From positions 1-49,715 of IMG/VR virus record IMGVR_UViG_3300017746_000020: 49,715 nucleotides of DNA. One strand, given 5' to 3'. This document shows, in pieces, positions 6,095 to 49,715 of the stretch; position 1 is the first letter of the stretch; the number at the start of each line of letters is the position of its first letter. The translations under genes and the position numbers were made by a program. The notes below the pieces were generated by a model. That model was not told the origin of the DNA. It saw only the letters and a list, made by a program, of their open reading frames with translations, and did no database searches. Source of the stretch: a virus.

Positions 6095-6102
6095 ACTAAA
6101 CC

Positions 6103-22567: not shown

Positions 22568-24109
22568 TTAGCTACTAATCTCTGGAGTAGGAACTCCAGC
22601 GTAGTTAATTGCATGAGCAAGCATGACGAAACCAGGGAACTCGCCAGCTGCATTTGCGCGAGGCTGTTGTCCGAAGTAAGAGCGCACAAAGACGTCCTTT
22701 ACGTATCCGTCTTCGTGAGACTGCTCACCGCGCTTGTTGCGATGTTTGCCGTATCCGCGACGTGCAGACTCAGCGCCCATCATAAGCGTCCAACCGTAGG
22801 TCTGACCCTTAGAGTTGGCAAGCATGACAAGTGCATCTTCAGCCCAATCGTCAGCGATAAGACCAGCAAACGCGCCAGAAGCATCAGTTACGCTTCCAAC
22901 AGTGTCCTTGAAGACTGATCCATTTCCGCCTGAGACAGAAGTTTGGAGAACTTCAGAGAGAACAATGTTGTGACCGTTGTTAGTGCTAACTTTAGCGAAG
23001 CCAAACTTGTTCTTTTGGTCAGCAGCAACGCCAGTAGCGTCAGGTGCGTTGTAGACCACAATGTAGAAGTCATCCGCTCCAGACACGTTAAGCTGATCAA
23101 GCTCGTTGAACTTGAAAGCAAACTTAGGGAAATACTTGAAGTAATCCCGGTAGCCAGCGCCAGAAGGATCGGTGGCGCGAGACCCGCCGCCCTTGAGGGT
23201 TACTGTGCTGTCCTTGTCTGCTGACCCAAACCAAGCACTGCCGTCAAGGATTGCTCCAGATCCGTCAGTTTTGATGTAAGCTTTAGGGTTCCACGGGCAA
23301 GCAATTGCTCCATCACCGTCATGGTCGATTGGGTTCCACTTGTGGAACGTATGACCGCGAGCGTGTGTGTAACCGCCTTTGAAAAGGAAGTTAGTGTCAC
23401 CACGATTGCCAGCATCGCGAAGGATTTGCTTGTAGTTGTCATCCAACTCAAGGTCGTAAAGACCGTCAGTGGTTGAACAAACGTGATTGCACTCAACGAT
23501 GTTGCCGTTGACCGTTTTGGTCTCAGCAGAAGTTCCTCCTTGACGCTCAAGGCGAACGCCCATCTTAACAACCTCATCGAAAGAAAGGGTGTCAGAAGAG
23601 GTGAGGTCATCAACGCTAGAACTATCGCCAGCAAAAACAGTGTTGCTAGAGGTTCCTTTTTCGCGATACATCATGGCCATGCGCTCACTCTTGAGGCGAC
23701 CAAGCCACTTACCCATTTCAGCAGGAAGACCGCTGACGATTTCGCCGCGCATTCCCATGTGCTCTTCCATGCGCTCAGTGTAACGCACAGCGTGACGCAT
23801 GACGTCCAATACAAGATCGTCTTCGTCAAATTTGAGCCCCTCGAAATCAGTAGAGTTTTCGTAAAGCTGTTCAGCGTGTTTTGGCTCTTGATAAAGCCCT
23901 GCCATTGAAGTGAACGTGATGCGGTGACCACGGCCCTTTGATGTGTCAGTGACGGTGCGAATAGCGGAAGAAGGGCTGTTACCCTCGAACTGCTGGAAGA
24001 AATCCCGCGTTTGCTCGAAGATGTCAACGCCAGCTTTCCACATAGTGTGCGGATCAATCTGACTACCGACACTAGTGCCGGTGTTTGGAGAAGTAATTTC
24101 CCAAGACAT
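22568..24109 (-). CDS. Major capsid protein, N4-gp56 type
   Basis: The 513-residue protein has features of the N4-gp56 capsid family: an N-terminal MWKAGVDIFEQTRDFFQQFE, KGRGHRITFTSMAGLYQEP, an early helix with RMEEHMGMRGEIVSGLP, and a C-terminal LMMGAESARRGYGKHRNKR followed by VFVRSYFGQQP. It is preceded by an acidic scaffold-like gene and followed by a strong terminator, both common around capsid genes. The ATG at 24109 has an A/T-rich leader without a Shine-Dalgarno. Confidence 0.85.
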   Translation of the reverse strand: MSWEITSPNTGTSVGSQIDPHTMWKAGVDIFEQTRDFFQQFEGNSPSSAIRTVTDTSKGRGHRITFTSMAGLYQEPKHAEQLYENSTDFEGLKFDEDDLVLDVMRHAVRYTERMEEHMGMRGEIVSGLPAEMGKWLGRLKSERMAMMYREKGTSSNTVFAGDSSSVDDLTSSDTLSFDEVVKMGVRLERQGGTSAETKTVNGNIVECNHVCSTTDGLYDLELDDNYKQILRDAGNRGDTNFLFKGGYTHARGHTFHKWNPIDHDGDGAIACPWNPKAYIKTDGSGAILDGSAWFGSADKDSTVTLKGGGSRATDPSGAGYRDYFKYFPKFAFKFNELDQLNVSGADDFYIVVYNAPDATGVAADQKNKFGFAKVSTNNGHNIVLSEVLQTSVSGGNGSVFKDTVGSVTDASGAFAGLIADDWAEDALVMLANSKGQTYGWTLMMGAESARRGYGKHRNKRGEQSHEDGYVKDVFVRSYFGQQPRANAAGEFPGFVMLAHAINYAGVPTPEISS

Positions 24110-25279: not shown

Positions 25280-25903
25280 ATGCCATACGACGCACCAATG
25301 TCCGAAAACGATTACATGGGGCCAAACCCCGGTGATAATTATGACCCAGATTCAGCACTTATGGCTGCGAGATCCATACAGGGTCTGCAACAACAAATGC
25401 AATGGTTATTAAAATTGTTAGAGCCTTTTGAGGTAGAGCTTTTAATTGATGGAGATGGAAAACAATTTGAGGCGCTTGTTGATTTATCATCTCGCGATAC
25501 AACGAGGCTCGCGCCTTATACGCTTTTTACCGATGGCGAAGATTTTGTAGTGCGGTTTGGAGAAACTAGATGCAGGAGAGAAGACGCAGCATACAGCAGA
25601 ACCGCTACCGATATGACAGAAGAAGACGGCTTTGTAGTGCCGGGAGAATTGGCTGACGGTGACAAAGTGTTCCTCAAGCTCGAGGTTGATTATCCCAATA
25701 TTGCTAAAGAACTGACAATTGAAACAGCAGCTGAATTACCGGACGATGTTATCATCGATAGCGGTGAAAGCACGGGTTACTATTATTTGTTAATTGGCTC
25801 AGTCTCTATTGACGGAGATGACAAAGGCGTTAATTCTGTAGCGAGCTCCAATTTCATTTTCGACGTAGCCTGCGACGGCTTAGCAATTTGGGGTAGATTG
25901 TAA
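25280..25903 (+). CDS. Hypothetical, probable virion protein
   Basis: The 207-residue protein has a Pro/Asp/Asn-rich start (GPNPGDNYDPDSALMAARSI), a helix (QGLQQQMQWLLKLLEPFE) and a beta-rich C-terminal 140 residues (DGKQFEALVDLSSRDTTRL; STGYYYLLIGSVSIDGDDKG). The layout of helix then beta domain suggests a tail or capsid appendage. Starts at 25280 or 25298 are possible. It is the first gene of an inverted three-gene island. Confidence 0.5.
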   Translation: MPYDAPMSENDYMGPNPGDNYDPDSALMAARSIQGLQQQMQWLLKLLEPFEVELLIDGDGKQFEALVDLSSRDTTRLAPYTLFTDGEDFVVRFGETRCRREDAAYSRTATDMTEEDGFVVPGELADGDKVFLKLEVDYPNIAKELTIETAAELPDDVIIDSGESTGYYYLLIGSVSIDGDDKGVNSVASSNFIFDVACDGLAIWGRL

Positions 25904-26640
25904 TGCCAACGCCCTACAGAGAAAAAGGTGGGAATCCGCACGTTCATTATCAGCGGAATTTGCACCGAGCAAACTGGCCTTGTGAAACAGACCTTATGAT
26001 GGAGGTCACAATTACTTGGTCAGAAACCGATGACAATGATACTCATAGACGCTATTTCGGGAAGCTCTGGAAAAACGGTCTACCTATAGAACTGCCAGTA
26101 GCTTTTGCGGCTGGCGAAGTTCGCTCAACTACTACCACTGGCGGTTCAACAACAGCAGAGGGTGGATACACCTACGGGACAACAATTACGCTTCTTGCAT
26201 ATTATTATCAGTCTTGGCGTTGGGGTTATGGGAATGTTGCAATCAACAGCAATGAAAATTTAGCTGGCACTGCTATAGGCGCTAAAAACGATGATTTATG
26301 CATCAGTGGAGGATTTTGCTTTAGGCACAAAGGGTCGATATACATTTTCGATATAGACACTCCATCTAGCCCTAGCCCACTTTTCACATTTGGCGTTTGG
26401 GGAATACAAGAATCTGGCACTTGGCCTAATTACTTCAGCGCTTTAGAAGTAAAGGGTGACTCTGCAACTAATCAAACCAACGACGCGTCCTTGCAGCAAT
26501 CGTTACCTGATCCAGATACATTTATTGACATCACTAGCGCCAACACAGGAGCGCACGTAAATTCTCTTGTGATAAGCGATGGCGCCACCGTAAGCTGGTC
26601 GCCGGTAGACCCTTCAGACGACGAGTGGATACCCGTTTAG
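25903..26640 (+). CDS. Hypothetical, probable virion or adhesin-like protein
   Basis: The 245-residue protein starts one base inside the previous stop (TAATG). It is rich in Thr, Gly, Trp and Tyr (SQSWRWGYGNVAINSNENL-like middle; TTTTGGSTTAEGGYTYG). Repeated aromatic-Gly beta strands suggest an outer virion or carbohydrate-binding protein. No family is recognised. A sulfotransferase gene follows eight bases downstream. Confidence 0.5.
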   Translation: MPTPYREKGGNPHVHYQRNLHRANWPCETDLMMEVTITWSETDDNDTHRRYFGKLWKNGLPIELPVAFAAGEVRSTTTTGGSTTAEGGYTYGTTITLLAYYYQSWRWGYGNVAINSNENLAGTAIGAKNDDLCISGGFCFRHKGSIYIFDIDTPSSPSPLFTFGVWGIQESGTWPNYFSALEVKGDSATNQTNDASLQQSLPDPDTFIDITSANTGAHVNSLVISDGATVSWSPVDPSDDEWIPV

Positions 26641-26648
26641 ATTTAATT

Positions 26649-27737
26649 ATGGCCAAGATAATTGCTGTCACAGGCAGTCCCAGAGGTGGCACATCGCTAA
26701 CAATGCAAATTTTCGCCAAAGCCCTGGGCGAAGACCGCATCATATTTAGTAAAGCGAAAGCCAAAAGCAACAAAGCGAAACTACCCAAGGAAGTAAAAGC
26801 TTTAGCTGATTGGATTAAACGAAGAGACGGTTATTCAGAAAGTGCTGAGCAAAAAAAAGATTTAAACCCTAGAGGGTTTTATGAGGGCTGGCCATGTATG
26901 GGAATACCTTGGAACTTCATTAACCAAAAAAGACTGCAAAGCTTGCAAGAAGCAGAAACTGATGCGGTAGCCAAAATTGTGGGACAAGGGCTTGCTATCA
27001 CGAACCCTGATTACATCAGCAAGCTAGTGGTCATAGTGAGGCATCCTAGAGCAGTGGCTCGCAGTCAAGAGAAGCTTGTTAATCGCGTGAACATACGAGA
27101 TTCGCATAAGGGTATGCACAATGTCAGAAGAGAAGCGAAAATTCACAATCCTGATTTCTGGCTGTCAAACATGCTGTCGATAGCGCAATGGATTTCTGCG
27201 TTCCCAGATGTTCCCTTCTATGTTTTGTCATACGAGCGACTTACAAGCGCAAGTTGGCGCTGTGAGATCGATATGAATGAGTTGCAGAAATTCATTGGTG
27301 AAGGGGATTTTGTCAAAGCTAGCCAAGAATCAATAGATAGCAGCTTGATTAGGTCATACCCAAAAACTGATTGCAGTGAGGAAGTCCAAAAGCAGTTCTT
27401 GTTTGCTGAAGAAATCTACAGTTTGGCCTGCAACGGGGAATGGGAGGACGTGCTGCTTGCTTTTTCAGAACGAGCGAAACAACAAACGGAGGAAGACGCG
27501 AACAAGAAGCCAACAAAGTATCTTTGCTATAGAGCAAACCGCACAGTCCTGCAAGCGCAATGCAAAGAGTGCATCAAGGGCAAGACCGTGATGCAGAGTT
27601 TTAAAGAGCTAGCCGAAAAAGCGCAAGTCGATTGGAGAAAAGAACCGTGCGTTTATGAATGCGCCTTCAGAAACGACAGCAGCAAATACAAAACTCCCAG
27701 CGAAAGCATTAAACAAAACTTTTGGACTCACAGCTGA
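26649..27737 (+). CDS. Sulfotransferase-like protein 2
   Basis: The 362-residue protein has a good sulfotransferase fold signature. IIAVTGSPRGGTSLTMQIFA (residues about 4-23) is the PAPS 5'-phosphosulfate loop, close to the GxPRSGTS consensus. LVVIVRHPRAVARSQEKL (about 127-144) is the 3'-phosphate site. FPDVPFYVLSYERL fits the later conserved strand. The C-terminal 80 residues contain six Cys (CYRANRTVLQAQCKEC; CVYEC), perhaps a metal-binding appendix. I chose ATG 26649. It is unlike sulfotransferase 1 in sequence, so the two were probably acquired separately. Confidence 0.8.
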   Translation: MAKIIAVTGSPRGGTSLTMQIFAKALGEDRIIFSKAKAKSNKAKLPKEVKALADWIKRRDGYSESAEQKKDLNPRGFYEGWPCMGIPWNFINQKRLQSLQEAETDAVAKIVGQGLAITNPDYISKLVVIVRHPRAVARSQEKLVNRVNIRDSHKGMHNVRREAKIHNPDFWLSNMLSIAQWISAFPDVPFYVLSYERLTSASWRCEIDMNELQKFIGEGDFVKASQESIDSSLIRSYPKTDCSEEVQKQFLFAEEIYSLACNGEWEDVLLAFSERAKQQTEEDANKKPTKYLCYRANRTVLQAQCKECIKGKTVMQSFKELAEKAQVDWRKEPCVYECAFRNDSSKYKTPSESIKQNFWTHS

Positions 27738-27984: not shown

Positions 27985-30168
27985 TTAGAATAACGGCCCT
28001 GTTTGACCAGCTTGCGGCTGAGCCACTGCTTGCTGCGCTTGTTGCGGGTTAATAGCTGCAGAATCTTGTATCGGAGCTTGTTGCGGCTGCAGATAACGCT
28101 CTGCATTTGGTATTTGAAATTGTTTCAAAATATTGACGTAAAATTGAACAGTCACGGCTTGCACCTCAAAAGGCAATGAATAAAACTCACGCACAACTGT
28201 AGCTGCTTGCAAATTTTGCTGCAACAATTGTTCAGCGTGATACCTAGTCATCTCAAGCCTTATGTTTAGGTCTAGATTATTGATTTCCGCCGGGCTTATC
28301 ACACCCATTTCGGCTGTGTCGCCCTCAAAGAACTCAAAGATTTCATCTTCGTCTAGGTTTGCCAGCAAGACTAATACATTTTGATGGATAACGTCTTCAA
28401 TGCCATCTTCCATATCGCTGACATAAACGCCGAAAAGCTCATGCCCAGATAAATCCATGTTTCGGATTCCGGTTGCTAGCTTAGTGCTGTCAAGTCCAGC
28501 AGCAGCCGTGTCGTTGCTGTTCGCAACTCCGCTCATGTTCATTCCGATTTGCATATTGAAATCGATAATGTCTTTTAGGTCGTTTGCCTTGATGTCTTCA
28601 AGGTAAACCGTCTCAATAACGTCTTTAGCATTTTTGTCGGGTAACGGCGTATAGGTTCCTCCCCAATTCATTTCTAAGCGTTGATCAGCTTCTCCTTCGT
28701 ATGTGTTGTATGGGCGGAACAAGTCAATGCGACCGCTCATGCTTTGACCGAAATTCCAACGATTAAAAGTTAGATCAACAATTTTTTGAAGCGGCTCAAA
28801 TATCTCCATCGAACCAGTGCCGTGCCAACGTCCTTCAACTGGATTTATCCTAACCACTCGGAAAGGTCTTTTGCCGTCAGGCGTAACATTGGCAACATGA
28901 TCGTAAAACAAAGGAACTTTATTCTTGCGGTCATAGACTAATAGAATGTCTTCATATCTACCGTCTTCATCTACATCAAATCTGAGATAGGTTTCAGCTA
29001 TTTCTGTTTTTGGTTCAATTGCGCTAGAACTATCGCCGTGTTCTGAAAGATTGTTTGTGCCAACTCCAGTTTCATCAAGTTCTGGTCTAGGCTGTTCTTT
29101 GGCTGATGAAGGCTGGCCACTTTCGCTAGCAACCTCTCTGATTAAAGAAAGCCCTGCAGCAAACTCATTGTCTACACCAGTGATTGACTCGTTTTGATAA
29201 AGCATATCTACCAGGCTCATCACTGGCATGTCATATAAGTGACAGATTTGATCTGCATCTTGCACTGTCTCTGCGTTGAGCGGACACAAAAAATCTCTGA
29301 AGTAAACCGGCTTGGAATCTGGCCCTTTGTAGTGCGTTATGCGCCTTTCAATTTTTCGCAGTTCGTATTTCCTCATGTCTTGAGGCGGCAGAGGTGTAAT
29401 TTCGTCTCTTGCCAACACAACCATAGGAACAAACTGAGAAGGGTCTTCGCCTTCTGGAATAACGGCTGCTATCATCTTTTCGCCGTCAGACTCATAAATG
29501 TAATCCCCGTCTGCAGCAATAACGGGTTTATCGTCTGGGCCTATAAGCACTACAGCTTCAGTTTCATAAGAAATGCTTTTGTCCAAATGAGTGGTTTTAA
29601 CAACTGTCTCTCCGCGAATAAATGCCCCGTAAATTGCTCGCTCAATCGTTTTTTTCAGCTTGCTCTTGCGCAGCTTGTAATTGGCAAAGCGATTAATTTT
29701 CTCAGCTTTTACCTTGTCTTGCTCTCCAACCGCTGAAGCCGCAAAAAAAGGCTCAGTGCCTACAAAATATTTAATACCCCTACTTACTTGTTGTTGGATG
29801 ATGCGCCTACTTAATGGAACGGTATGATTAGATTTTTCAAATATCCCTCGCATTATATGCGCTCGATAATCTACTTTGTTGGCGAAGCCCATCTCATACA
29901 ACACTCGTCTTCCAATAAACGATTTTGCCGCTTGCGCAGCGTTGCCCGGATTGCTGGAATACCAATCTGCGTCATAAAGATTTTCTCGCCCAAGTTCTCC
30001 TTCAAGCCTTTGATTGGTTCCCTCAGCCCACTCCATCAGCCGATCTTCTTGTAAACGCGAAAGCTTCAAAGCGCTGCTAATCATTACTCGCGGCTCATTA
30101 GGCTTGTCAGGCGCAGGATATGCGGGAGCTTTGTTTTCTAGTATTGTATCTACTTGTGACTCTGACAT
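27985..30168 (-). CDS. Portal protein
   Basis: The 727-residue protein matches large podovirus portals (N4-type size). It has a basic N-terminal region with RIIQQQVSRGIKYFVGTEPF, a stem-like stretch with KKTIERAIYGAFIRGETVVK, YLRFDVDEDGRYEDILLVYD, and PFRVVRINPVEGRWHGTGSM followed by QKIVDLTFNRWNFGQSM, a typical portal core. The last 60 residues are Gln/Ala/Pro-rich. It forms the dodecameric DNA entry ring. The giant protein gene ends six bases upstream of the start. Confidence 0.88.
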   Translation of the reverse strand: MSESQVDTILENKAPAYPAPDKPNEPRVMISSALKLSRLQEDRLMEWAEGTNQRLEGELGRENLYDADWYSSNPGNAAQAAKSFIGRRVLYEMGFANKVDYRAHIMRGIFEKSNHTVPLSRRIIQQQVSRGIKYFVGTEPFFAASAVGEQDKVKAEKINRFANYKLRKSKLKKTIERAIYGAFIRGETVVKTTHLDKSISYETEAVVLIGPDDKPVIAADGDYIYESDGEKMIAAVIPEGEDPSQFVPMVVLARDEITPLPPQDMRKYELRKIERRITHYKGPDSKPVYFRDFLCPLNAETVQDADQICHLYDMPVMSLVDMLYQNESITGVDNEFAAGLSLIREVASESGQPSSAKEQPRPELDETGVGTNNLSEHGDSSSAIEPKTEIAETYLRFDVDEDGRYEDILLVYDRKNKVPLFYDHVANVTPDGKRPFRVVRINPVEGRWHGTGSMEIFEPLQKIVDLTFNRWNFGQSMSGRIDLFRPYNTYEGEADQRLEMNWGGTYTPLPDKNAKDVIETVYLEDIKANDLKDIIDFNMQIGMNMSGVANSNDTAAAGLDSTKLATGIRNMDLSGHELFGVYVSDMEDGIEDVIHQNVLVLLANLDEDEIFEFFEGDTAEMGVISPAEINNLDLNIRLEMTRYHAEQLLQQNLQAATVVREFYSLPFEVQAVTVQFYVNILKQFQIPNAERYLQPQQAPIQDSAAINPQQAQQAVAQPQAGQTGPLF

Positions 30169-30174: not shown

Positions 30175-32130
30175 TTAGGGTTGAGGCCCAACATAACGAC
30201 CATTTATAAATAACTTATCTTTTGCTTCACGTCTAGCCTCGCTAAGCAGACTCTTAAATTCTGACAAATGATCTTCTGTAGGCATCTTAAATTTAATCGG
30301 ATCAGCCCAAGCTCTTACTTTTTTGTCAAATAAACCTCCAGATATTTTTTGGAAATAATTTCTCTCAGCGTCAGTCATATCAACATATTCACCATCAGCA
30401 CCTTTGTATTTGTTGGTTGTCCCAGAGCCAAATGGTGAAGGCAGCTTGCCTGTCATCTCGGGGTATCTGTAAACAAGTGCCGACAAGAAACGGTCGCCTG
30501 GATGAGTAGCTTCAACATCAAGAGGCGTTGTAACTGCAATTCGGGCTGGCCCTGATAGAGTTTTCTCAAAATCCCTGCCGTAGAGATCGCGCTTAGGAAG
30601 GCCAAATGCGCCGGCGTTAGTTAGGCTATACAAATACCCTGATCTAGCTCGAGGGATTGGGTCAAGCTGACGCAATGGCTGTCGCAGAAGGTTGGGAACA
30701 AATCCTCGTAAGAAATCTTTTCCACTGTCTTCAATCAGCATTTTCGCTTTCGTTGCGTCTTTCTCCATAGCGATTGTTCTAGAAAAATCAAAAGCGTCGA
30801 TAATGGTTCTAAATCCCTGTAGGAAAGTTTTCTCTTCGGTTTGCTGCAGTATGCTGCCGTAAACTCTAGTGAGCATTGTTAAATCAAACTCCTTCGATTG
30901 TTTGCGCATCGCAATTAGGTCAACTACAGAGGTCAATATTGTTGAGATTGGCTCATAACGACCATAGGCAATGTGCATTCCATTTTTGCCTCCGATTCTG
31001 ATGATTTGCGCACCGCCATACTTTCTGTCGGCAAGCGCCCTCTCTCCAGCGTTGTATCTGTTGTAAGGTCGAGACCCAACAAGCAAGAACGGTTTGTCAT
31101 CGTCATCCTCGTCACCCTCTGCTGCGCTGTAAAGCAAGGCTGTGATGATCCCGGCTATCCCTTGCTCAGTTATATCTCTAATCAACTCTCGCCGCCCCAT
31201 GTCGCCGTAATTGGCGTTAAATGTTGCTTTGCCATTAGGCCCATAAGTGGCCATACCCGAACGCGCAAGCTTGTAAATCAAGTTTGCCGCTCCTATAGGA
31301 CTTTTGCGTAAGCCTTGTTGGAAAATGCGGTATGGCGTTCTAATGAAAGGGAAAAGAAACGTCAGGATTAATTTCAGTCCCGCATGTTCTGCGTTTTGAA
31401 TCCTTCCTGATCTAGCTTGTTGCACAGCTACCATTAACTTTTCACGGCTATCTTTAGAATTGGGATCAAAAGAATTTGTAAATGTAAGCTCTTTAGCTTT
31501 TTCAACAGCCAAAGTCCAAGCGGGAGAACCGTGTTCCATGAGCTCCGCAATTCTTTCTTGCATTTGATCTTCTTTGAGGTCTCCTGAAATCATTTGCGCG
31601 TTTGCAATTCGATATGCTTGCACAGCAACTTCTCCCTGCGAAATCATCGTCTTGAAGAAAGTGTCCATTGCTTGCAATGCATTTCCGGGCGTTCTGATTA
31701 CTTTGCCTTTGCGACCTTTGATCGATGGTGCAAAATGACCTTCAACTTTACTGACGTCGAATTGTTCAGCCGGCTCCCTCATCGCCCAAGCCTCAAAGAA
31801 ATCAAGGCCGTCACTCTTGAATGAATCAATGGCGTTCCTTGCAGCGGGAACGGCTCCTTGCCAAAACCCTTTCCAGAACCGACGCATATCTCCTATTTGT
31901 GTAGCTTCGGCCTTATCACCAGGGATAATTAGGTTAACTATTGATTCCCCCATAGTCTGCAGCGTCTTGTCCCAAACGATATTAATAGCATTAGAGCCAA
32001 TGTTTACTGCGTGTGTTTGTGGGCCAGAAAGTATTGCGTTGATCCAATATTCGCTAACTGCGTTATAAGCGTTTCCGTTAAATACAGATGCTAAACTTCT
32101 AGCAGCCCATGCTGCGTGTCTGGGGTCAGT
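30175..32130 (-). other. Giant protein: internal-virion-protein-like C-terminus
   Basis: YWINAILSGPQTHAVNIGSN and FPFIRTPYRIFQQGLRKSP are signatures of the C-terminal domain shared by polyvalent proteins and podovirus internal virion proteins. Several hydrophobic helices (AGIITALLYSAA; LTSVVDLIAM) could insert in membrane. An HTH-like element (KKIAKKLGISVDQIAKIEQD) lies just before, at about 32,330. This part probably packages or ejects the protein. Confidence 0.7.
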
Positions 32131-35100
32131 AATATCAAACTGACCGTTTGTTTCACGATTGAACGTATTTTTATTCCGAATATCTGCTTCAACTAGAACG
32201 TCTTGATCGAACGTCTTACCGTCAGATTGGCGTTCAGCCATGCCCTGCGCAGCCTTGCCAAACTCTAAGCGAAGAGCCTTTCTGAAGTCTTGCTCAATCT
32301 TTGCAATTTGATCGACAGAAATTCCAAGTTTCTTGGCGATTTTTTTGTCAGGCTGTCTGTTTACTAGCATCTTAGCAGTCTCTTTCGCTGCTTTAGAGCC
32401 CATTCTAGCAACAGCAGCTTTGACAGCTGGCGCCTGTCTAGCTGCTCTTATTCTGTCTCCATCAAACACGTCCCGCAATGTAACGCCATAAGTTCCAAGC
32501 ACGTTGGCAGCATCGTCAAATTTCTTCTGTTGTATTTTAGCATCTACCTCAACCGCTTTTAATTCTTCTTTTAGCGTTGCGAGTTCGCGCTGCAATTTTC
32601 TGAGAGATTGGGGGTCACTTTCTGCAGCAACTAATCGGTGCAACTCTCTGACGCGATCTCTGCGCTGCGGCCCTAACTGCATATTGTCGAGTCGCCCCTG
32701 CTCAACAGAGCCATGTCCAGAGAAACCTAAAAAGCTTGAGATCATTTCTGCGTGCCGCTCAGCAGGAGTCTTAGAGGGATCTCTGCCTGCAGCAAGTTCT
32801 CTAGCAGCTTCAGTTCTTGTGCGCTGGTATGCGTGCGATAAAACTTGCGCCTCAGCCAATGCTTGCGTGTCGTTTCTTGCGATAGCGTCACGCCATACTC
32901 GGCCTAATACTGTTTTGGCAGCGTGAACATAAACTGCATTGCCAAGAGATTCTCGCTTAGCGCCTCTCTCCAAAACGTGCGCTTTGACCGCCTCAAATTG
33001 AGTGTCGGCCATTTCTCTGCCTTGCTCATAAATATCATCTTCGACCATGCGCTCTCGCTCTTTGTCGTATGCCCATTGCACAATAGAGTTCGCTTGTCTG
33101 ACTTTTTCATCACCACTAATATTGGCCAACCTTGGAACGCCAATGGTAACTTCGCCTTCAGCTTGTCCAGACCTAGCTTTGTAATCTGCAATAAAATCAT
33201 CTAAATCTTGCAGGTCTTCGCTCAAGATGCGTACAGACTCCTCAATAACGTCATCTAATGGCGTTTCATCGTTGATGTCGCTTGTGTCTGATCTCTTCGC
33301 TGCTTGAAGGTCTACTCCCTTTGAAAACATCATCATGTCTTCTGGGTCAAACGCGATGTAAGAATCGCCAGTTGCTTCGCCTTGTGCAGTCAAGCCTTCA
33401 AAATCATTTTGATAAACAATGCCGTCATATCCTTTGCCAATAAGATAGTCGCGGATCGCTTCAAACTGTTTTGCTATACCAGCAGGCGTGAAATCTTTGG
33501 TATTGATCTTGGGCATATCATCGAAGCCCGTAGTTTTCAATTCCTCAATAATACTGTATGGATCATCCCACGTTGCGATGTCGCGCATTCTCAGAGGGTT
33601 TCCTTGTTTCACGTAAACGCCTATCACGCGTTCTCCAGTGCGCGGATATGTCCTCTCAATGAAGCCGGGAGAGCCATCGTCTTGCGCACGATTCAATCTC
33701 CACAAGGCTTGATTGGGACTGCCGAAATGAATCCCTAAGTCGGCAGTTGGACTCTGGAATTGATCATACAATTCAGCTGTGCCGTGATACACAGGGCCAA
33801 CATTGAAACCTTGTTCTGCTGCGAAAGCAGCGTCGCTCGCGCTTGGCTCTGGAATATCTCTTTGAGCTGCGCCTTGGTCAATTACGCTTGTGCGTTCTTG
33901 CTCGCTATCTGCTCGAGTAGCGTCTTGTTGATCGCTGCGAGTTCCTTGTCCATCTCTTGGCGGTCGCTCGGGTCTTGGCTGTTGTCCATCGGCCCCTGAA
34001 ATAATTTCTCCCCGGATTGTTCCTCGGTCGAGGGTGAGTCTTGTGATTGCTCCTGTGTCTGCATTCTGCGTTTCTGTGAAATAAACTCCTTGATCAATTG
34101 CTCGACCAACTGCGTCAGCGTCAATTACCCCATTACCTTGCATCAAATCGTATGTAAGATCAAGACTTGAGTGACCAACTGCTTCGTTTTTAATTGCGTT
34201 CCAACCGTGCCAATGAAGACCCCCTACGTTCGCGTGCGGCCCAAGAAATTGTGTCAAAGCCGTTGATGCTTCAATTGATTCTTGCAAAACCTTTTCCATT
34301 CCTTCGTAGAACGCTAACGAAAAATATGGATTTGGCTGTTCAACGTCCTTTATTGGGCCTCCATAATAACTCGTAGGATCGGTAGGAGCGGCAGTATTCA
34401 GATTGTATTTGAAAAACTCTCTAGGCGTATTGGCTCCTTGTGAAGCCATCAAGTCAGGAAGCCAGAACTCAACAAATTTCCAGCGATCCATAATTAAGCC
34501 AGGGTTACCATACGTTAAGCCTATAAATCGCTGAACTTTGTTTTTAATTCCAAGGGCGCCAGCATCTGCAACAAGAGCATTCCAAGCTCTGCCAGATTCA
34601 ATTGAGTTTGTGTCCCGGTAGACAGATTCAACTTCATTCCAGCGACCGTCTAAACGGCTCAAAAGCATAAATATGTCATTCGCTTGACTTGTTACTTGAT
34701 TGCCAATTGAAAGCGCAGCTTCATTGGTTTGATCTCTAGACTCTATGACTATCTCAGTCCAGACATGCGAAGGTTGAACGGGCCTTATACCGTTTTTGCT
34801 CATTCGACTAGATGCTGTCGCCTTGTCAATGCGCTCACGGTTGCTCTCAAATTCAGACGCAATAAAATCGTTGAACGTGCCATCAATCGATTTTTGCATT
34901 GCTTCACGCGCTCTAGGATTTGACAGCAGCCGCAGCCACATAGCTTCTTGTTGCACTGGTGTAGCTTGTTTGGAAAGCGTTCCCCATGCGTGATGCAGCA
35001 ACAAAACCCAACTTGGAATTTCGCCTCTGCGATTAATTTCTGCTTTCATGGCTAGTGTTGAGTCTAAACCAGATCGCGCAGCTTCATGCACACCAGGAAC

Positions 35101-38100
35101 CGTCAAGTCGCCGTGATAACCTCCATCTATCAAAGATACATATTCGTCAGGACGATTAACAATCGTGTCAACAGCGCTTGGCGCTGCGAATATTTTTCCA
35201 TGAACTCCTGCTTTCCTCATAAATTCAACATAACCTTTTGGGTTAGCGAATTTACTTACGTCTTGACTAAGCCAATTGAGCGCTTCATCCAAACGAGCAT
35301 TTGCTAGTTTTTGTTTGTCTTCTGTTTTTGGATATGCTTTAGGTAGCGAACCGGCAACCTTGCGAGCTTCATACATTGCTATCGGCCCCCCATCAATGGT
35401 TTTAACTCCAGATGGAGCAGGATTTGGGTAGTCTCTAGCGGCAGCAAACTGCTCAACACCCTGACTCACTTTTTCTCTAAGCTGAGGAGTCAACTCGAGC
35501 ATTGTTGTAGTTAGCGTAGGATAATTTGGATATTCGACGCCATTGAACATTATCGTTTGTTCACCGTCAGAATACTTAACGAATCTGCTGTCGGAATATT
35601 CGCTCTGCGCTGCGAGGTCTCTTTCGTAATCGTTAAAATTAAAGTCGTCGCGATTTTCAAAAGGATTACGGTCGCGATCTATTCTGCGAGCTTCGTCAAA
35701 ATCAAATGGATCAATATCTTCATCTACACCCAACAAGTTTCCCTGAGAGTCATAAACGTTAAGTCCTCCATTTTGTGCTTTTGGATTCTCACCGTCTACA
35801 TAAACATTCAATTGATCTGGGTTTCGCATCACCATTGGCTTGAGCTCTGGAGCAACTCCAACGCTTTTTCCTAGTTTGGTAAGGGCTTTAGGCACTATAG
35901 AATCATAGATCATTTTGTGCATTGCACCGCCGATTGAGAGATTGTCCTCTTCGATCTTAAATGTTTCGTTGACGCCTAGCGCTCTAACGGCGTCATCATT
36001 TTGCTTGTTATTAGTGAAATCTGACAAAGTGAAATTTTTGCCGTTTTGCCGCGTAGTGCCATTTGATGGGATATAAATTGAATAGTTTATTCCCATCTTA
36101 TTAAACGTCACTTTGTAAACGTCGGCGTCTTGCTTAGTTAGGTTTAATGCATCACCTACGGTTGCCCGGTAAGCTTCCATTTTTGCCACGTTCTCAGCAT
36201 AATTTGCAAATCGCGAATCGGTTGTGTATCGCGGCATGTCAAAATTTTGATCGCTAGCATATCCACCCAGAATATAATCGGTGCGATAAAACGTGTCTCT
36301 GGGCATCGATCCTACAGCAGCATTCATCAATTGCTGAGCGTCAACATTTACACGCGCGGCATAAGGCACGAAACCTTGTCGATTTATATCGATCAAATTA
36401 AACGAGCGGCCATTTTCTGTGCTTATGTCTAATTCTTGTAGCGGAACGAACGCCGTCTCAGGTTTTGCTGGATCTATGAGCGGTTGCCCAGCACCGTGCA
36501 TATTGTTTCTTGCGGTAAGCTCAAATGTTGTATCTGAGGTTGTATTGAATTTGTAGTGAGGCTCTTCTTGTGTTCGATAATAGACATCTTGTGGCCTCGA
36601 AGCATCTTTGATGGCAGCGGCTGCTGTAACTAGCTCATTCAATTTGCGAATTTTTTTGTCATGCTCTGCGTTGCCTTCAACTTTGGCAAAAAACACTTCT
36701 GAGGATCCTTTAATTACATCTCTGGCTTTCAGCTGCGCCCCTTCACTCTGCAAGTGCGCAGGAGCAAAGCCCCTATACTCACCAGTTCTGCTATCCTTTA
36801 CAATTACGATTGCGGAAAGATCATCAACAGCGCCTGCATAAGCTTTTGCGCCGCTCATTTTTTCATACGAAATATCTTGTCTCTTACTTTCTTTGGTGAA
36901 CTCAATGCTCTCAACCCGTGTGCGAAAGTCGTTTGTGTTTAAATCGATTTGATGTAATCCCGTAGGGAAAGCGATGGCATCGTATCCACTCTGCGCAGCC
37001 ATCTGAACCATTCTGTTCGTTGCTAGCTTCGGCCAAGAGTTGCCCCAAGGCGCATAAGGAACTGGATTTTGTTCCATTTTTTGTCTGTGCGCAGTAAATA
37101 TTTCCCAATCGGCAGCATCTGCCCAATCAGGTTTGTCTGAGCCAATTTGTTGCCGCACATATTCTCTAGCGTCAACGAAACCATCATAATCCGGAAAGCC
37201 AAACTCTTCAGCAGCTTGTTTTAGCAAATTTTCCTCAGCCTTTTGGAACTCAGCATCTTCAGCTGCCGTGATATATCCAGCATTGCGTCCTCTCTGATGC
37301 CAATCAGATTGGATTTCATTTACATACATCACTTTGCGCCCTTGTGTGTCGTAGCGGTCAGAAACCCTGGCGTGAAACATCACGTTTTCCTGATCCCAAT
37401 GAGATCCTGTAAGCGTGTTAAATGTATTTTCTCCTTCGGGCTTGTAGATGAACAAAATTTCTCTGTAGTTTTCGCCGCCGTCAGTAGCGTATTCTTCGTA
37501 GCGAGTTGCATGATTTTTGTCTGCAGAGTCAATTTCTCTGATAATCGGTTGTGAAGTTTTGATGAAATCAAGAACCTCTTTCTTTGAAAAGCTGCGCTGG
37601 CCTTCAAGAAAATCCAACACACCACTCGCTTCTATCTCTTCTTGTGTGACACTACTTTGCCAGCGCACAACTCCCGGCAAGTCTGCAGCAAAACCTTCAG
37701 CTGCATCACGTTGCGTTGCTGGAAACTTGCGACGCATTTTGCCCACTTGATCTTCAGTTCCTTCGTGAACTTGCCAGTTGCCGATAATTGCGCCCACTTG
37801 ATCGACACCAGCTTTCTCAGGCATCTTGGCATCGATTGCGGTCTGCATAGTGCTGATGTAAAGAGGAGAGGGAGATGGGGTTTCTCGCGTTGCTGCTTGT
37901 TGCTCCGAAGGCTTGATGGCAGTAATCACACCCTCTTTTCTTGAGACATTTTCTTCGCCAAAGATGTCTGCAATTAGATCAACGTAGTAATCAGGTTTAG
38001 CAGCAACTTGATAGGTATCCTCGCCAGATGGCCCCTCTTTTTCTGCTTTGTAAATTGTGACATAAAACGTGCCACCGGGTTTTAAAGCGTTCTCAGCCTG

Positions 38101-41100
38101 CAGAATCAGCCGGCGTTGATTGGTAACCTCTTTGATGACATTCAGCGCATTGTTTGAAACTACAATGTCGCTCTGACCGTTGGCTGCTTTTTTGACCGCT
38201 GCAATCCTGTCTGCAGAGCGTTCCTCAAACCACGGCTCATAGGAGTAAAATACACCACCCATCCTCGCAACCGCCTTGTCAGCGTGGCGGTATGGCCCTG
38301 TGCCAATATCCAAGACAACTTGTCTCGGGCGGATTAGGCCATTTTCCTCTAAATAGGTATATCCTCTGGGAAGTCTGTTGGAGTTTCCTCGCGAAGTGTC
38401 TGCAGAGGTGAACTCTTGCTGCGGGATTCCCCAGAGATCATTGGTTCTCCGCGCAGTTTCTTGAGGTGCTTGCGCGTTTCTTCTAGCATTTTCTTTTTGG
38501 CGTCCTGCCTCAAGGACAGCTTCGAGTGCTGCTGCGTCCCGCTTGCCGAGTCCGAGGTAGGCGACTTGCGAGTTTGTGAGGGAATCAATGCTTGGAAGTC
38601 CATACTTAGAAAGTAGGTCGTCTACGACCTCTTGACCAGACTTTTCAACTGTAGCAAACCTGTCTAATTTTGCAACTGTTTCAGCCCTGGGCTTCAAATA
38701 CCTGCTGTTGCCAGTTTGCGCAGAATGAGATGCAGCTAAAGCAAAAACAGCCACTGCGTTCCCGCCGCTTCTCTCAATGTATTTGCGGATTTCATTGACC
38801 GTAGATCCCGTGGTCAATACGTCATCAATAATCACGTAGTCTCTGCCAGCTTGCACTTCTCCGCCAAACTCAGGCACTCTGAACAATCTCTCTATTGCGT
38901 TTGCATTTGTATGATTCCCTGCAACCAACTCTACTATTTTCTCATCTACTTCAAGGCCAGTCATGTCTGCTAGCGCTGCTGCTGCTGCTGCCGGGATAGC
39001 ATTTGTTCCCCCCATTTCTTGGCTATCAGGAAACACTAGAATTGAATTAGGGTAATTATTTGCAACTTCTTGAGCTATCTCTGGTTTAATCGACTCAATT
39101 GCAATTTGCGTAGCGGCTAACGTGTCGCCAGCTTTGGCGGATTCGTGACGTTTTCTTTTGTCGCTTCCTTCTTTGCCCCTCAAGAATGGCAATGTTGTGT
39201 TGACGTGGGCATCTGGGAAAGTTTCTGGGAAGGGTCTTGCTGCGCTGTTGAGCTCCGTTTTGTAAACCTCATCGCCAAAGGCTGTAGTAATCTCTCCGTT
39301 GCTTTGATCAAGCATTTCTAACTTGAGATCATTAAACTGCACGTTTTCGATAGAAAATGTTTTGCCGCCGCTGTTAATTGAATGCACGTAGTCTCCGATC
39401 TTCAAATCGAGTAGAGGAGCCAAGTTATTAAGAGCGTTCTCAGCTTGTTTATCAGAGAGAAATTCACCTATCAGCAAATCGTTGGCATAAGCAGCGTATT
39501 TGCTTTTGCTAATCATTTTGACGCAAGCATCACATTTCTCTCTTGTGCTTTGCAGATATGCTTGATGGTTTAACACTTCGATATTTTTAGCAGGAGTGAA
39601 CGTGCTAATCGGCTCTTGCGCCGTGTGCATCAAAATGTGTTCTATGACCGGGACTGACCAACTGTTCCCAATACCTTGATATTTTGCCGTGTTGCTTACT
39701 CCCTCAACATCCGATAGATAACCGTCTGGGAAACCCATAAGACGCGCTACTTCTGGAAGGGTGATTTTGCGGTATCTGCCCTTCTGATCAACTAACAGAT
39801 TTTTTGGTGCGCCTTTAGCGATGTTTCGTGTGATTGCTTTAGCCTTATCTCTTTTGACATCGTGATGATCTCCCATGTTCCAGCGAGAACGACCGCGACG
39901 GTCAACATAGCTCATTAGTTTCTCAATGCCCTCTTGATTCCAAAAAGCGTCTTGAGGGACTTCTTGATCAATAACATCAATTAATTTCACGCCCATGTCT
40001 TTTGGTTGCGTGATTGGAAAATTAGCCCAATACAAGCGATCTCTCAAAGCGCCGGTAGAGAGCTTAGAATTTATTCTTACGGGGGAGACGCCAAGTGCTT
40101 CTGTGATAACAGCTTGGTCTTCTTTTTTCATTGAGGCATTGTTCTCGAGCAAGAAAAACTTGGGTTTTTTGCCTTTGATTTGTTTTACAAATTCCCAAAA
40201 CAATGCGCTACGAGGGTCGGCCATCCCTGCTCTTTTGCCTCGACAAGAAAATCCCTGGCACGGCGATCCGCCCCATATGAGATCAATAGGCGCCATTTTT
40301 ATAGATTTAAGCTTTTGAACGTCACCAACATCCTCAATGAAGTTGTGATTAGCTTTCTGGATTTTTATTGCTGACTCTTCAATTTCTGACGAATAATAAT
40401 TATCAATCGGGATGCCAAGGTTTTTGATTGCTTGCGCCCCAGCTGCGATTCCATCAAACAAACTTAGCACGTTCCAAGCGCCGTTTTCTCCACTTCCTTG
40501 CGGCCACTCTACTTCTGGCGCGGAAACAAGCCTCCCAGCGAAGTCTCGTTCTAATCCGAAGGCATCACTTCTTCTAGTTTTGGCGCGGTTGGATGCTGCC
40601 TTTTGAATATCGGGTAAACTAGGTTCAAAAGTTGTTCCCCTTTCGGCTGCGCCTTGATCGCCCTCACGATTGCTTTGAGTTGGCTCTCTGTCTGAGCTAA
40701 ACTCAAATGACTCACGAAGACTAAAATCTCTATGTTCTCCTTTTTCTTTTGTGAGTCCTGTTGGCGTTCCGTTGATGAAGGTTTTGTAGTCATTGTTGTT
40801 ATTTATTGATTCTTTCTCTAATGCTTCAGATAGAAAATCTCCCAAGCCAGCTTCAAACAAGGAGTTTACATCATCAGCTAATTGTTCAACAAATGGGAAA
40901 TACATTGGCCCCATTCGCGTAATATTGCGAGTAAGGACGTATGAGTATTGCTCGGTAGCGTCTCCATATCCTGAGTTATGAGTAAGCTCATGCAGGAGCG
41001 TTGTTACTAACTCAGCAGCGAACATACTGCTGTCATCGCCATATTGATCTAATCCTAGCTCTGCTGTTTCTCTCTTATTTATGATTCTTTTATATATGCG

Positions 41101-44100
41101 AAATGGAGATACGGTGATTCCATATTTGTTGTTATTGAATCGATATTCACCTGCATTTGTATTAGTTGCAGATGAAGTAAAATTGACTCCCAAAGCAGTC
41201 ATTCCAACATTGATACCAATTAAATCGCTTTTTGTCGCAGACTCAAAACCGCTTCTCTCCAGATGTGCAGACAACTTGTCATAATATTTTTGCACAACCT
41301 CCATCACTTGATTGGTTAGGTCGTTTTGCGACAGTTCGACAGCCAGATCAGCGTTGCTCCCCGTAAGGTCAAAAACTTTTAGAGTTTTTACATTTTGCTG
41401 TTTGAGATTTGGGCTGTTTCTATATTGAGAAATGATTTTATTAACTTTTGCTGCTGCAGCAGTTTTTCGATAATTATTAAACAAATCGTTGTAAGCAATC
41501 GTTCCAGTTGTGCTGAAGTTATCTCGTCCCGCATTGAAAGGATAAGCATTAGATTTAGGATCAATCTTAGTAGAAACATTGATTGTTATAGAGCTCGGCA
41601 GAGGAATGCTTGACTCAAAAGCGAAATTCTTTGAAAATTGCCAGATCCCTTTGTTTAATATGTTAACTTTAATAGAGCTTCTTTCAGATATATCATCTCT
41701 TTGCAAAAGAGTGTATTTAGTCCCTTTATCATTTTTCGTTCCTAAATAGGATAAAGGTTCAGAACTTCTTCTTACTGCTTTTGCGTTGTTTTTGTTTGTT
41801 CCTATGGAGAACCGCACGCCCATAGGATCATTAACAGCTATAAGGTTTGCTGTTTTCTCAGCTTCGACAAAATCGAAATTTATAGCATCACCACTATTAT
41901 CGTTTTGTTGTGTTGGTATTTGTGTTGTTATTTTTGTGTAGGAGCCAGGCTTGTTAACTGTGATAATCTCACTAGAGAAATTTTTAGGAAATTCCTCTAA
42001 AAGCATATCTGTTAACGCCGCCATCGACGGGTCGAGCTCCATATAGCGCTCTTCAAATATTTGGTTCAGATAGTTGTGACCAGAATATTCTTGTCCACCA
42101 AAGCTGTATTTTGCTCCAAGTTTTTCACCAAAAAAATCTTCGCCTTCGTTTTTGATGATGATTTCAATCGGAGTCCTATTTGTATCCACTAAAATGCGAT
42201 TAAAATTCTCTACGATACGGTCTCGCAATGGCGGCGGCAGGTATCCCAACGCCTTGAAAAACTTATCTGTCGCAACATTTAAGGAGTTGTCTGGGTCAAA
42301 AACGGGCATCGCTTCTAACAGAGTTAGGTCTTCATCAGAAGTGACTTGAGTTCTAGTTATGAAGTTCCCAGTTTTTTTTCTATATTCGTAATCCTCAATT
42401 TCTGAATTGAGGCTGAGAAGTGAATTTACAGGGTAAGGGAAATAAGCACTCGCAAGATTGTCCAGAGATGCGTGTAGCGGGTGAGAATAATCTTGGAGGA
42501 TGTCAACGACTTCTTGTTGGCGTTCCCTAAAAACTTTAGGGATGTCTGGAACCAAATTAGGATTAATATTCCAATTGAACAAATTATAGGAATCTACCTC
42601 GAGAGAAAACCCTTTAGGAAGCACGTTGCTAAGTGGCAAAGCCATGTTCTCAAAAGCAGAAATGTCTTTAATCTGCTTGGTAGCGAATGTGTTTTTTAAT
42701 ACAACAGTTTCAGCACCAGAAGAAACAGCTGCATTGCGATTAGCTACAATTGATACCCCGTTTGGTTTGTCATTAATTGTGTTCAACCATTTTTGACCAT
42801 CACCAGTCATTGTGGTTTTGGTGAAGGAGCCGTCATTCTCCTCAAACATTGTTTCAACTGTAAAGTTGTCGCTGTTACCAAAAATAACAGCCTTGGCTAA
42901 ACCGTAACCCCCGGCGCCTCCCGTTTCTTTGAAACTTTTAGTTATGTCAATAAGTGCTGAGGCAACTCTCTCTGGAGGCATGCCGTGACCAGTATCTTCT
43001 ATTGTAAGGGTTCTGTTTTCCTCATCAATTATTACAACAACTTCGTTGTCAGAACCTTCCTTATTTCCTTTTTCAACGTCAGGGCGAATTGCATCAAGAC
43101 TATTTTGCAAAAGCTCTCTTACAATAACAACGCCCATGTCCTGGGAGTATATCTTGTTTTGCACCACGTTTATTAAATCGCTCTTTTCAGATGTTATGTT
43201 TGGTTGCACCTCAACGCCCACTCTTTGCGCTGCATACTGCAATGGGTCTCGCCTTTTTCTAGCAAGACCTCCAAACATTCCGTAAACGGGTTTTGCGTTC
43301 CAAACTAAAGCGTGCCAAGTATCTTGTTCCTGCACTACTTCCATTCTTGGGAAATACGACGTAGCGTTCATAATTACGCCGTCGTAATCAAGCAACTTGA
43401 GCGCTTCTGCGAACACTTCGCCGCCATTTTCAAAAACTTCGGAGGACATGTTCCTCAAGTTCCGAAAGCTTAACGGAGAAATTTCAAATACGTTGAGAGC
43501 AAAGTCTGTCATGCTCATGCGAGCATCTTCTTGGATCAGCTCAAATTTAGATTCCAACAAAGAATCTATCGCTTTGCTATTAACGGCATCAAAAATCTGG
43601 TCATTATTTTCCAACACATCTATAGCTGCATCTATAATTCGAATAGCTTCTCCGCTTGCCGGGATGTCATCGCCTAATTCATTGGCTTTTATAATAGCTT
43701 CTGATTTGAAATATTCTTCATTGATTCCTCGAGAATCCAAATAGCCCTCAAAACTCAGCAGTTCATTTCCGTTTCGTTGATCGTAAGCATAGTCTTCTTG
43801 CAAGTCGGCTAGAATGTCTTCTCGGTATCGATCAACGTCTATTTCAACACCAGCTGATACAAAAATTTCCTCTCGGTTGCTAGGATCGAGTATCGCCCAT
43901 TTTTGACCGTGCAAATAAACAGGCGTGATGCGCGGAGAAAAGCGATTAGCAAAAAGTGCTTTTGCAATGTTGTCAGCTTGTTCGCTATCTGTTTCTGGGT
44001 TGTCAGCTTCAATATTGTCTGCTGTTTCTTCCGCCAAAAACTCTAAAAACTCTTTGGCGTTATCGGGGTGCAAATCGACATCGGCGTAGTTATTTGCGTC

Positions 44101-47100
44101 ATCAATTGAAGTTGTGAAATACAATCCTGACCCCAAGAAAGAGCCATGTCTAGACGGTGTATTGAACAAATCATTGTCAAAATGCCCTCTAAAAAATGAC
44201 GTAGGCAATCCGCTGTAATCTCTTGTGAGCGGGTGAGAGGTTGACCACTTAGCCGTGAGTTCTTCATTCTCTCCTCGCATAGCAGCAAACTGCAGATCGA
44301 GTTCGTCATCTGTATATAACTCACTGAAATGAGGCTCATAACCGTCAATGAGGTTATACTCCTCAGCACGCTGGTAGAAACCTTCCGCTGACTCAACAAT
44401 TCCTTCTACATAAATTGGGCCGTCAATGCGACTGCGAAGCCAAGCCAGCATTTCCATGCCGCGCACCCCGAACTCGCGTTGCCTAAATACACCTGTCACA
44501 ATGGCGCCTTCGCTGCCGTCGTAGTCCAAAGCCTCCATTGTCTCTGGATCATCTGTGTATATCAAATCTCCACCTTTGAACTTAGCCATGCGCATTTGCT
44601 CGCCGGGCTTGTCCTCTTTCATGCCAGCTAGACTGATTGTCTCAACAGTTTCTGGTTCTGGCCATTCACGCGGCGCGGCGCCCTGATCGCCAAAACCGGC
44701 TGATTCTGGAACTTGCGTCTTTTGAGCTGCTGCGTCACGCTCTCGCCTAGCTTGCGTAAGGATCTTAGCGACATTTTCTTTCGCTCTCTGCAGTATATTC
44801 TCGACTGCTTTAGTAGACTTTCCTAATTCAGCAGCAATATCCTCATTTGATTTATTTTCTATATAACTCTTTTCAAAAACCTCAGCTTGCAGCTTTGGTA
44901 GTTTCGCAATCACTTTGCGTAGCACTTCATCGCCTTGAGACTTGGCATCTTGCTCTGTTGTAGGCGTTTGCGTTTTGAGGAAATCCATTACGTCTGGGCG
45001 CAATGGGAGCGGCATGACCGCACTATCAGGAATTATGTCAGCAATGCGCTCTTCAATTGCTTTCTGAGCTTGTCGCACAACTTCTTCTCTAAAGTTTTCT
45101 GGTTTTTGCACTGCGCGGCTAACGCCTACATTTGCTGCAGCTACCAAAATCTCAGGTGAGATGCCGACGTTGCGATATTGCGCTGCTACCATTTGCGGGA
45201 TCGCAGCCTCCCTCACGTATTCCAACCGCTTTGCCGGCGTGTCTAGTTGTTTGTCGGTTCGCGTTTCAGCAAACAAATCAATAAGCCCGGCTTCAACAAA
45301 GCTCTGCGCTTGGATTGTTAGGTCGCGAAGGTTTTCAATCTCGCGTCGCAAGCCAGGGTCTGTTACGTTCTTGTCTGTTAGCAATGAATTTAATTTGCCA
45401 ACAAGATTTTCAAGGATTGCAACGATCTTTTCCCAAAGTGATTCATCGTTAGGCAGCATCTGCGCTATGCCAACCTGACCGTCTCTCGCAGCCTCAACCA
45501 CCATATTGAGATATTCATGGCCCATGTAGGTTGAGTTTGATGCCCTTTGGATGTCTGCCTCAAATTCTGCAGGCCACTGATTAACAGGGACGTTAGTGAG
45601 GTCTATGCCTCGCTGCCTTTTTGCCTTGTTGATGGTGTAGGCAAAATAACTTTGCGTTGTTAAATCTTTAAGCTCTTGAGGCAATCGCTCCCAAATGCTT
45701 GCAACAGCTTGATCGCCTACAAGCCGGCGGATAATGTTGTGCGTCGATTCCTCTAAAACTGTTTTTCTTGCAACTTCGACTGCTTCAGCAACAGATGCTC
45801 CTGATGAAATTGCTTGCAAGGATTGGTTAATCAACAACTCTGGGTCAATTTTTAGCGTGCCGTCAAATTCAACAGCTGCAGTGCCGCCAAACCTTCCTAC
45901 TTGCACTTTTTTGAAAGCGGTTTCTTGCTGCGAAACAGTTTCAATAATCTGTTCCACTATAGCGCCAGCTATGTTGTATCTCTGCTCTTCGCTAAGATTT
46001 GGTAGGGCATCAGCACTAGCAGCAACAGCGGAATCAATCAAAGCAGCGCTAGCAGAACGCATTGCTTGTTCGCCTGCCTTTTGCCCTCTCCTGGGCTTCA
46101 TCAGCTTCTTGACGTTGTATTTAGGCAAATTTGCTAGCTCAGGATCAACTGGCATCTGCTCTCTGCGCTCTCTTTCGGCCTGTGTTTGCTCCTGAGCCGC
46201 TTCTACGCTTTCTAGTGTTGGCGACAAGCCTTCGTATTCTCGAGCTCTTGGCGGCTGCATGACGCCATCTGCAATTCGCTTGCGAGTCTCAGCCTCTGAC
46301 ATCTCAATCAATGCTCGGTTCGCAGGAGCCGCTTCAGCAGCCCAAGCGACAGCATCATCCAGAATAATTGGAACAGAGCCTCCTTCTGCCTCTACCGCTT
46401 CTAAGGCTGCGGGTAATCCTAACTCCGGGGAGCCTTGCTCAAGGAGTGATTTTTCTTCGTTTGAAAGTTGCACAGTGCTGCCTTGCGACATTTTTGTGGC
46501 AGCGTGTAATTGATTTAGTCTTGCCTTTTGCAACAACAAATCATTGAGAGAATTTTGTATGCCTTGCACTGCGTTGGCTGGCATCAAGCCCCCTTCTTGC
46601 GCTTGCCTCAGATTAGTTTCAGCGCGATCAATCGCAGCATCGAGATCAGCTGATTGTTGCTTGTATTCTTTGAGCGCAACTGCCTGCGCAGCCATGCGAT
46701 TTGCTGCTGTAGAACTTTGCGTGGCTTTAGCAATTTTAACAGCGTTGAATGCGATTTGTGCTTTTTCGCTGTCGAATCCGTATTCTTCGTTTGCTCGAGC
46801 AAGTTCTTGTTCAAGATACTCAACTTGGCTTTGTCCGGGTGCTGACGCAGCTTCGACGCCGCCAAATATCAACTGCAGTTCTGCTACCTCTGCTTCGGTA
46901 ATGGTAACGCCCTCTGGCAAGTATTCTTGCAACACAACTGCTGCATCTGGGCCGCTAAGTGCCTCTGCTAGCGCAGCAGATGCCTCCTCAACTTGAGATA
47001 ATTCCGCTTGATTGCTTTTTTGGATGTTGCGCGATCTGCGCCCTACAGAGCCAACAGTAGCTAGCGCCATAATTAATCCTATGCTAGAGCCTATCCCAGC

Positions 47101-49715: not shown

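Follow-up and report, generated by a model that had tools for sequence, protein, structure and literature searches.

The window analysed here is a stretch of 49,715 bases that makes up the whole of IMG/VR record IMGVR_UViG_3300017746_000020 and belongs to a short-tailed bacterial virus in which a single giant protein takes up about one-third of the genome. The gene for this protein occupies positions 30175–49713 on the minus strand as a single stop-free frame that is 6,512 codons long and extends past the contig end, in agreement with a first-pass annotation, made by a model from the letters alone, which had described a frame of at least 19.5 kb still open at the window edge. Searches with hidden Markov model profiles find several unrelated enzymatic domains in the one chain, as in the polyvalent proteins of phages; the same annotation had proposed this assignment, and profile and synteny evidence uphold it. 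Four related viral contigs (G001 to G004) were retrieved via the portal protein (70% identity), and two of them were retrieved again via the N-terminal part of the giant protein. The features of the gene, which include a sigma-70-type module and repeated copies of the motif Q-x-A-A-x-R (QxAAxR), referred to here as a delimiter, are listed in the direction of translation.

30175–49713, minus strand: giant polyvalent gene, at least 6,512 codons, start outside the contig; full length estimated at ~6,930 amino acids
45964–49713, minus strand: N-terminal ~1,250 residues, ~26–39% identity to relatives per 100-residue bin; QxAAxR absent
45304–45846, minus strand: zincin-like region with EESTHN (EExTHN in relatives), first zinc-ligand His lost; low confidence
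44719–45246, minus strand: sigma-70-type module, regions 2 and 4, residues ~1490–1665
44776–44925, minus strand: sigma region 4 (PF08281, E 1.7e-15)
44668–44688, minus strand: delimiter DQGAAPR, between the sigma module and the next module
44275–44295, minus strand: delimiter LQFAAMR, before ART-like domain 1
43309–44241, minus strand: ART-like domain 1 (ART1; RGHFD / GLYFT / YDGVI), H-Y-D kept; profile match weak (E 0.028)
43222–43242, minus strand: delimiter LQYAAQR, between ART1 and GHKL
42724–43236, minus strand: GHKL ATPase (Hsp90-type N-terminal fold), from profiles; 70% identity in relatives
40834–41316, minus strand: zincin with HELTHN (HExxH), assigned by motif only; conserved as HEITHN
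40639–40659, minus strand: delimiter DQGAAER, between the zincin and the C5 module
39589–40506, minus strand: C5 cytosine DNA methyltransferase (PF00145, E 4e-41; phrog_116, E 1e-48)
38674–39186, minus strand: phosphoribosyltransferase (PRT) with DDVLTTGS (phrog_22413, E 7e-36; PF00156 weak, E 8e-4; ComF/orotate phosphoribosyltransferase models, E 1e-6)
37939–38451, minus strand: S-adenosylmethionine (SAM)-dependent methyltransferase with LDIGTGP (PF13489 weak, E 0.002); motif kept in relatives
37885–37905, minus strand: delimiter EQQAATR, between the SAM and EIQSDWHQ modules
36694–37881, minus strand: swappable module with EIQSDWHQ, present in G002 and G003, absent from G001
35434–35454, minus strand: delimiter EQFAAAR
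33904–35430, minus strand: variable module
33859–33879, minus strand: delimiter DQGAAQR, before ART2
33328–33855, minus strand: ART-PolyVal-like domain 2 (ART2; PF18760, E 1e-4, below cut-off), YHGT kept
33292–33312, minus strand: delimiter variant DLQAAKR (L for Q), between ART2 and the internal virion domain; QGAAQR at this place in G001 and G002
30178–33288, minus strand: internal-virion-protein-D-like C-terminus, 61% identity in four relatives

The true start of the gene is absent from the record; in relative G001 (IMGVR_UViG_3300025759_014178, 56,647 bases), the complete gene, with an ATG start, spans contig positions 14480–34273, encodes 6,597 amino acids and makes up 34.9% of the contig. 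The G001 and window proteins are collinear over window residues 15–3939 (38% identity) and 5469–6510 (61%), and ~437 G001 residues lie upstream of the position aligned to window residue 15, from which the full length of the window protein is estimated at ~6,930 amino acids. At least 6,956 residues of the giant protein are encoded in G002, with 91% amino acid identity to G001 over the aligned columns and one frameshift, which is likely a sequence error because the G002 capsid gene is split too; the copy in G003 is broken and that in G004 is partial. When viral contigs were searched with single-protein or alignment queries taken from the N-terminal, sigma, EIQSDWHQ and C-terminal parts, the outcome was either the same four relatives or nothing. 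No cultured-phage relatives were found for the first 2,999 residues of the window protein, no plasmid relatives for residues 1290–3000, and no prophage in genome contigs searched for a host with the C-terminal domain and the portal as queries. Profile searches assigned no family to the N-terminal ~1,250 residues, and a search of the window for RNA families found none.

The delimiter motif occurs seven times in the window protein, 11 times in G001 and 10 times in G002, compared with 0.2 times in shuffled sequences, and in no other open reading frame (ORF) of these phages, the broken copy in G003 being counted as giant. In an enumeration of all four-residue patterns within seven positions it ranks at the top (window 7, G001 11, shuffles 4–5). 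The copies are situated between recognised modules and at most module borders; the first is at residue 1677, in a low-confidence stretch of the structural model (pLDDT <50), with none before it. When G001 is partitioned into 12 units (the sigma-bearing N-terminal part, a small unit, ART1, GHKL plus zincin, C5, PRT, SAM, GNAT, GNAT, DUF7178, ART2 and the virion domain), its 11 copies fall one per border, a count that is descriptive rather than an independent test since the borders were set by the author from profile hits and alignments. The partial gene of G004 contains only L-x-A-A-x-R variants and no exact copy. An exact-pattern scan of other phages for QGAAQRD, limited to the CAG codon (42 loci), gave no string-bearing ORF with more than one QxAAxR, and these occurrences are apparently due to chance.

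The sigma-70-type module lies just ahead of the first delimiter and was missed in the first-pass annotation. The region 4 helix-turn-helix profile PF08281 matches the window protein with an E-value of 1.7e-15 and G002 with 1e-7, above the cut-off, and G001 with 2.3e-6, below it. In a search of the PDB, a profile built from three giant proteins matches RpoS chains (best E 0.003), aligning weakly to region 2 and then, in the correct order, to region 4. All 50 Foldseek matches listed for an AlphaFold2 model of the module (pLDDT 68) are sigma factors, with probabilities of 0.97–1.00, E-values of 2e-3 to 3e-2 and alignments of 165–259 columns that mostly span regions 2 and 4, and those of a longer model are likewise mostly sigma factors. 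A region 2-like segment, MVAAQYRxxGxSxxxLxxAAxxGxxxAxQK, is invariant at the listed positions in the three giant proteins. These alignments and models suggest that the module is likely, though not proven, to be a minimal sigma factor of two regions. No T7-type RNA polymerase was seen in the contigs in a search made without a positive control.

At the other end of the chain, identity to each of the four relatives is 61% over the C-terminal ~1,040 residues, which are homologous to internal virion protein D of marine T7-like podoviruses (hhalign probability 99.7, E 2e-26, 431 columns), bearing out the earlier description of an internal-virion-protein-like C-terminus beside the portal gene. In tblastn searches the matched phage gene is annotated as internal virion protein D or located in that position, and in one marine podovirus it comes after tail-tube B and internal genes. 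Nothing significant was found among PDB sequences. The portal gene lies directly downstream, with capsid and terminase genes on the same contig.

27985–30168, minus strand: portal protein (phrog_1216, E 4e-16), 70% identity in relatives
22568–24109, minus strand: major capsid protein (phrog_334)
13146–14933, plus strand: terminase large subunit

The relatives share the gene order around the giant gene, namely portal, scaffold-position gene, capsid and tail genes. Immediately before the giant gene, G001 has an ORF of 457 amino acids (L006:7302-8675) without a PHROG match, possibly another internal virion protein. Between the portal and the scaffold-position gene of the window, three ORFs (25280–27737) lie on the plus strand, opposite to their surroundings. 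A short stretch of the first, but of neither of the others, is conserved in relatives, and the arrangement suggests an accessory-gene slot.

The first-pass annotation had listed intact motifs for a GHKL ATPase, a zincin, C5 and SAM methyltransferases, a phosphoribosyltransferase and two ART-like domains. The first five motifs are present; profiles support GHKL, C5 and the phosphoribosyltransferase, match SAM and both ART-PolyVal-like domains weakly, and leave the zincin to its motif, so that most, not all, of the named domains are supported. The N, G1 and G2 boxes of the GHKL part (ELLQNSLDA, DTGHGMP and GGAGGYG) are all present, and Hsp90/topoisomerase-type PDB chains match it. The C5 module contains motifs I, IV (PCQ), VI (EN), VIII and X, with ENN rather than ENV in motif VI. 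The H-Y-D triad is complete in ART1, whereas ART2 keeps H and D and has the central Y replaced by H in the window and by V in G001. The second, degenerate zincin-like region, which the first-pass annotation had overlooked along with the delimiters, is probably inactive judging by its EESTHN sequence; aminopeptidase N is among its weak fold matches, and it has no profile match.

Comparison of G001 with G002 shows that the synonymous divergence (dS) is 1.54 in the C5 module and 0.65 in the SAM module, in contrast to 0.02–0.08 in several neighbouring segments; the part that follows SAM is either saturated or different. Module content differs as well: the EIQSDWHQ module is found in the window, G002 and G003, GNAT and DUF7178 modules in G001 and G002, and an ASCH domain in G004. 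The dS contrast and the differing content together indicate, at the level of sequence comparison, that modules are swapped as cassettes, with C5, SAM and the variable region after SAM as the best cases.

Our preferred reading, to which we assign a probability of roughly 0.55, is that the product of the gene is a polyvalent polyprotein packaged in the virion, with an internal-virion anchor, effectors that are released separately, and a sigma module that redirects host RNA polymerase. The C-terminal internal virion (ejection) domain would position the chain above the portal inside the head and would carry it into the host together with the DNA, the rest of the chain being cargo; homology and gene order make such packaging and ejection plausible. 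The QxAAxR copies would most likely be processing sites at which the HExxH zincin of the chain itself, or another protease, would cut to free the modules. Judging by domain type, the C5 DNA methylase, phosphoribosyltransferase, SAM methylase, ARTs and GHKL ATPase may protect DNA or alter host proteins or nucleotides, and the sigma-70-type module would attach to the core RNA polymerase of the host and steer it to phage promoters. The first-pass annotation had proposed a single protein packaged and ejected to disarm the host or protect incoming DNA; once the sigma module and the delimiter motif are taken into account, the likelier mechanism is no longer that of one multi-effector protein but that of a polyprotein divided into segments, which may in addition initiate phage transcription. 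The most detailed version, in which an injected, self-processing polyprotein of ~7,000 residues uses QxAAxR as a release code, acquires cassettes inserted with their own sites, and ejects a sigma factor that reprograms host RNA polymerase, is put forward tentatively and is itself somewhat improbable in all its particulars.

Several observations weigh against the preferred reading. The HELTHN zincin (HEITHN in relatives), although its motif is kept in three giant proteins, has no profile match, and the C5–PRT and PRT–SAM borders of the window carry only degenerate versions of the delimiter. The Pfam region 2 profile (PF04542) has no match in the sigma module, the sigma models are of moderate confidence (pLDDT 64–68) with low TM-scores and Foldseek E-values no better than 1e-3 to 1e-2, and searches for a conserved phage promoter motif found none, phage-specific and Bacteroidota-type promoters giving nothing above chance. 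T7 gp16 is undetected by profile comparison from either the window protein or the marine proteins, and homology is therefore asserted to the marine family only. Finally, the zincins of the phage N4 virion RNA polymerase (vRNAP) and of some plasmid polyvalent proteins leave their own chain unprocessed before transfer (PMC5512222). This precedent leads to an alternative in which the protein is packaged and ejected as an intact chain and QxAAxR is an uncleaved motif that serves as a linker or in docking, for example when the chain is threaded through the portal or binds the internal core. The N4 vRNAP, with its zincin, is packaged uncleaved, the plasmid proteins TraC1 and ArdC travel at full length, and the conserved Q and R could form a binding motif; against this, P1 DdrB is cleaved, and the motif stands in inter-module linkers, including those around newly acquired cassettes, as expected for a release site. 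We consider an intact chain unlikely, though it deserves serious attention, and regard QxAAxR as a candidate recognition site for the zincin processing that Iyer et al. (PMC5512222) have proposed for polyvalent proteins.

The sigma-like module might instead act as a decoy that binds DNA or RNA polymerase, an anti-host or regulatory helix-turn-helix derived from region 4 rather than a working sigma factor. The failure of the Pfam profile at region 2 and the sub-threshold region 4 match in G001 speak for a decoy, but the invariance of the region 2-like segment, its in-order alignment to RpoS and the coverage of both regions by most fold matches do not, and we judge this explanation rather doubtful. 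It is very unlikely that the delimiters are recombination joints for cassette exchange with no role in the protein: relatives do swap modules at these positions, but the Q, A, A and R codons vary from site to site, so that little DNA identity remains and the motif appears to be kept at the protein level, and the orthologous sites 1677, 1808 and 2159 are retained where no exchange is seen. The differing codons thus disfavour a DNA joint. An assembly artefact or multi-gene chimera as the source of the long frame is the least probable of the alternatives and is rejected here. The contig does terminate within the gene, and G002 and G003 show breaks, but G001 and G002, which are separate records, show collinearity throughout the gene except in the variable region and have the same neighbouring genes, including, in G001, a portal 70% identical to that of the window, and the dN/dS ratio of 0.29 between them over 6,399 codons indicates purifying selection on the gene overall.

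If the segmented-polyprotein reading is correct, the delimiter is a readable code in a phage polyprotein, with which the units of other giant phage proteins could be told apart, and it becomes possible to test whether polyvalent proteins work as a single chain or through parts that have been released. An ejected sigma factor would be a way of starting phage transcription of which no description was found in open-access PMC papers, the literature compared here. We know of no earlier candidate recognition site for the processing of polyvalent proteins.

Elsewhere in the window, the N-terminal half of a C5 methylase (phrog_363, E 4e-55) is encoded at 8381–8890 on the minus strand, within the reach of a second minus-strand frame at 7408–8886 that contains the C5 C-terminal motif and has its own match to phrog_1008 (E 3e-26). 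The two frames start 4 nt apart, and their overlap, kept in G001 and G004, is either a dual-coding region or a frameshifted gene. A gene block of ~4–7 kb is inverted between the window (2347–6669) and G001 (39197–45829), and a sulfotransferase-like gene (phrog_3347, 16185–16862) adjoins the tail-fibre genes. Around 29 gene starts in the window and G001 have no evident Shine-Dalgarno sequence, many being A-rich upstream; this would fit hosts such as Bacteroidota and is at best a hint.

Among known systems, the marine T7-like internal virion proteins D (CRP-125 gp38, CRP-804, HTVC011P and S-TIP28) are homologous to the C-terminal part over ~430 columns but are only ~1,190–1,300 amino acids long, far below the giant protein, and T7 gp16 itself goes undetected. 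The N4-type virion RNA polymerase (Schitoviridae, ~3,500 amino acids, PMC12633501) and the tape-measure-fused RNA polymerase of P23-45 (5,002 amino acids, PMC10770324) are likewise giant virion proteins that deliver transcription activity into the host; they carry their own polymerase, whereas the sigma-type module of the window protein would need that of the host. The DarB-like giant proteins of Bcep22-like podoviruses are also polyvalent, lie in the virion module and take a large share of the genome (22.1% for the JC1 protein; PMC9144972), but are smaller (4,658 amino acids for BcepMigl gp69) and, among the matches listed in the phage collection, show no tblastn relation to the window protein. 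Neither BcepMigl gp69 nor the RPP1 virion RNA polymerase contains a copy of QxAAxR.

There is also a likeness to the polyvalent proteins of Iyer et al. (2017, PMC5512222), which are very large and multidomain, lie near portal and packaging genes, are predicted to be injected, and combine zincin, ART, DNA methylase, phosphoribosyltransferase and GNAT domains with structural ones, the zincin-like metallopeptidase being a hub domain found in ~36% of them. The text of that study contains neither "sigma" nor "GHKL", and no repeated delimiter motif was found in it ("linker" and "interdomain" being absent); the structural domain of the window protein differs in being an internal virion protein D-like tail. 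The kind of protein is known; new in this case are its size and internal-virion tail, its sigma and GHKL modules, and the delimiter.
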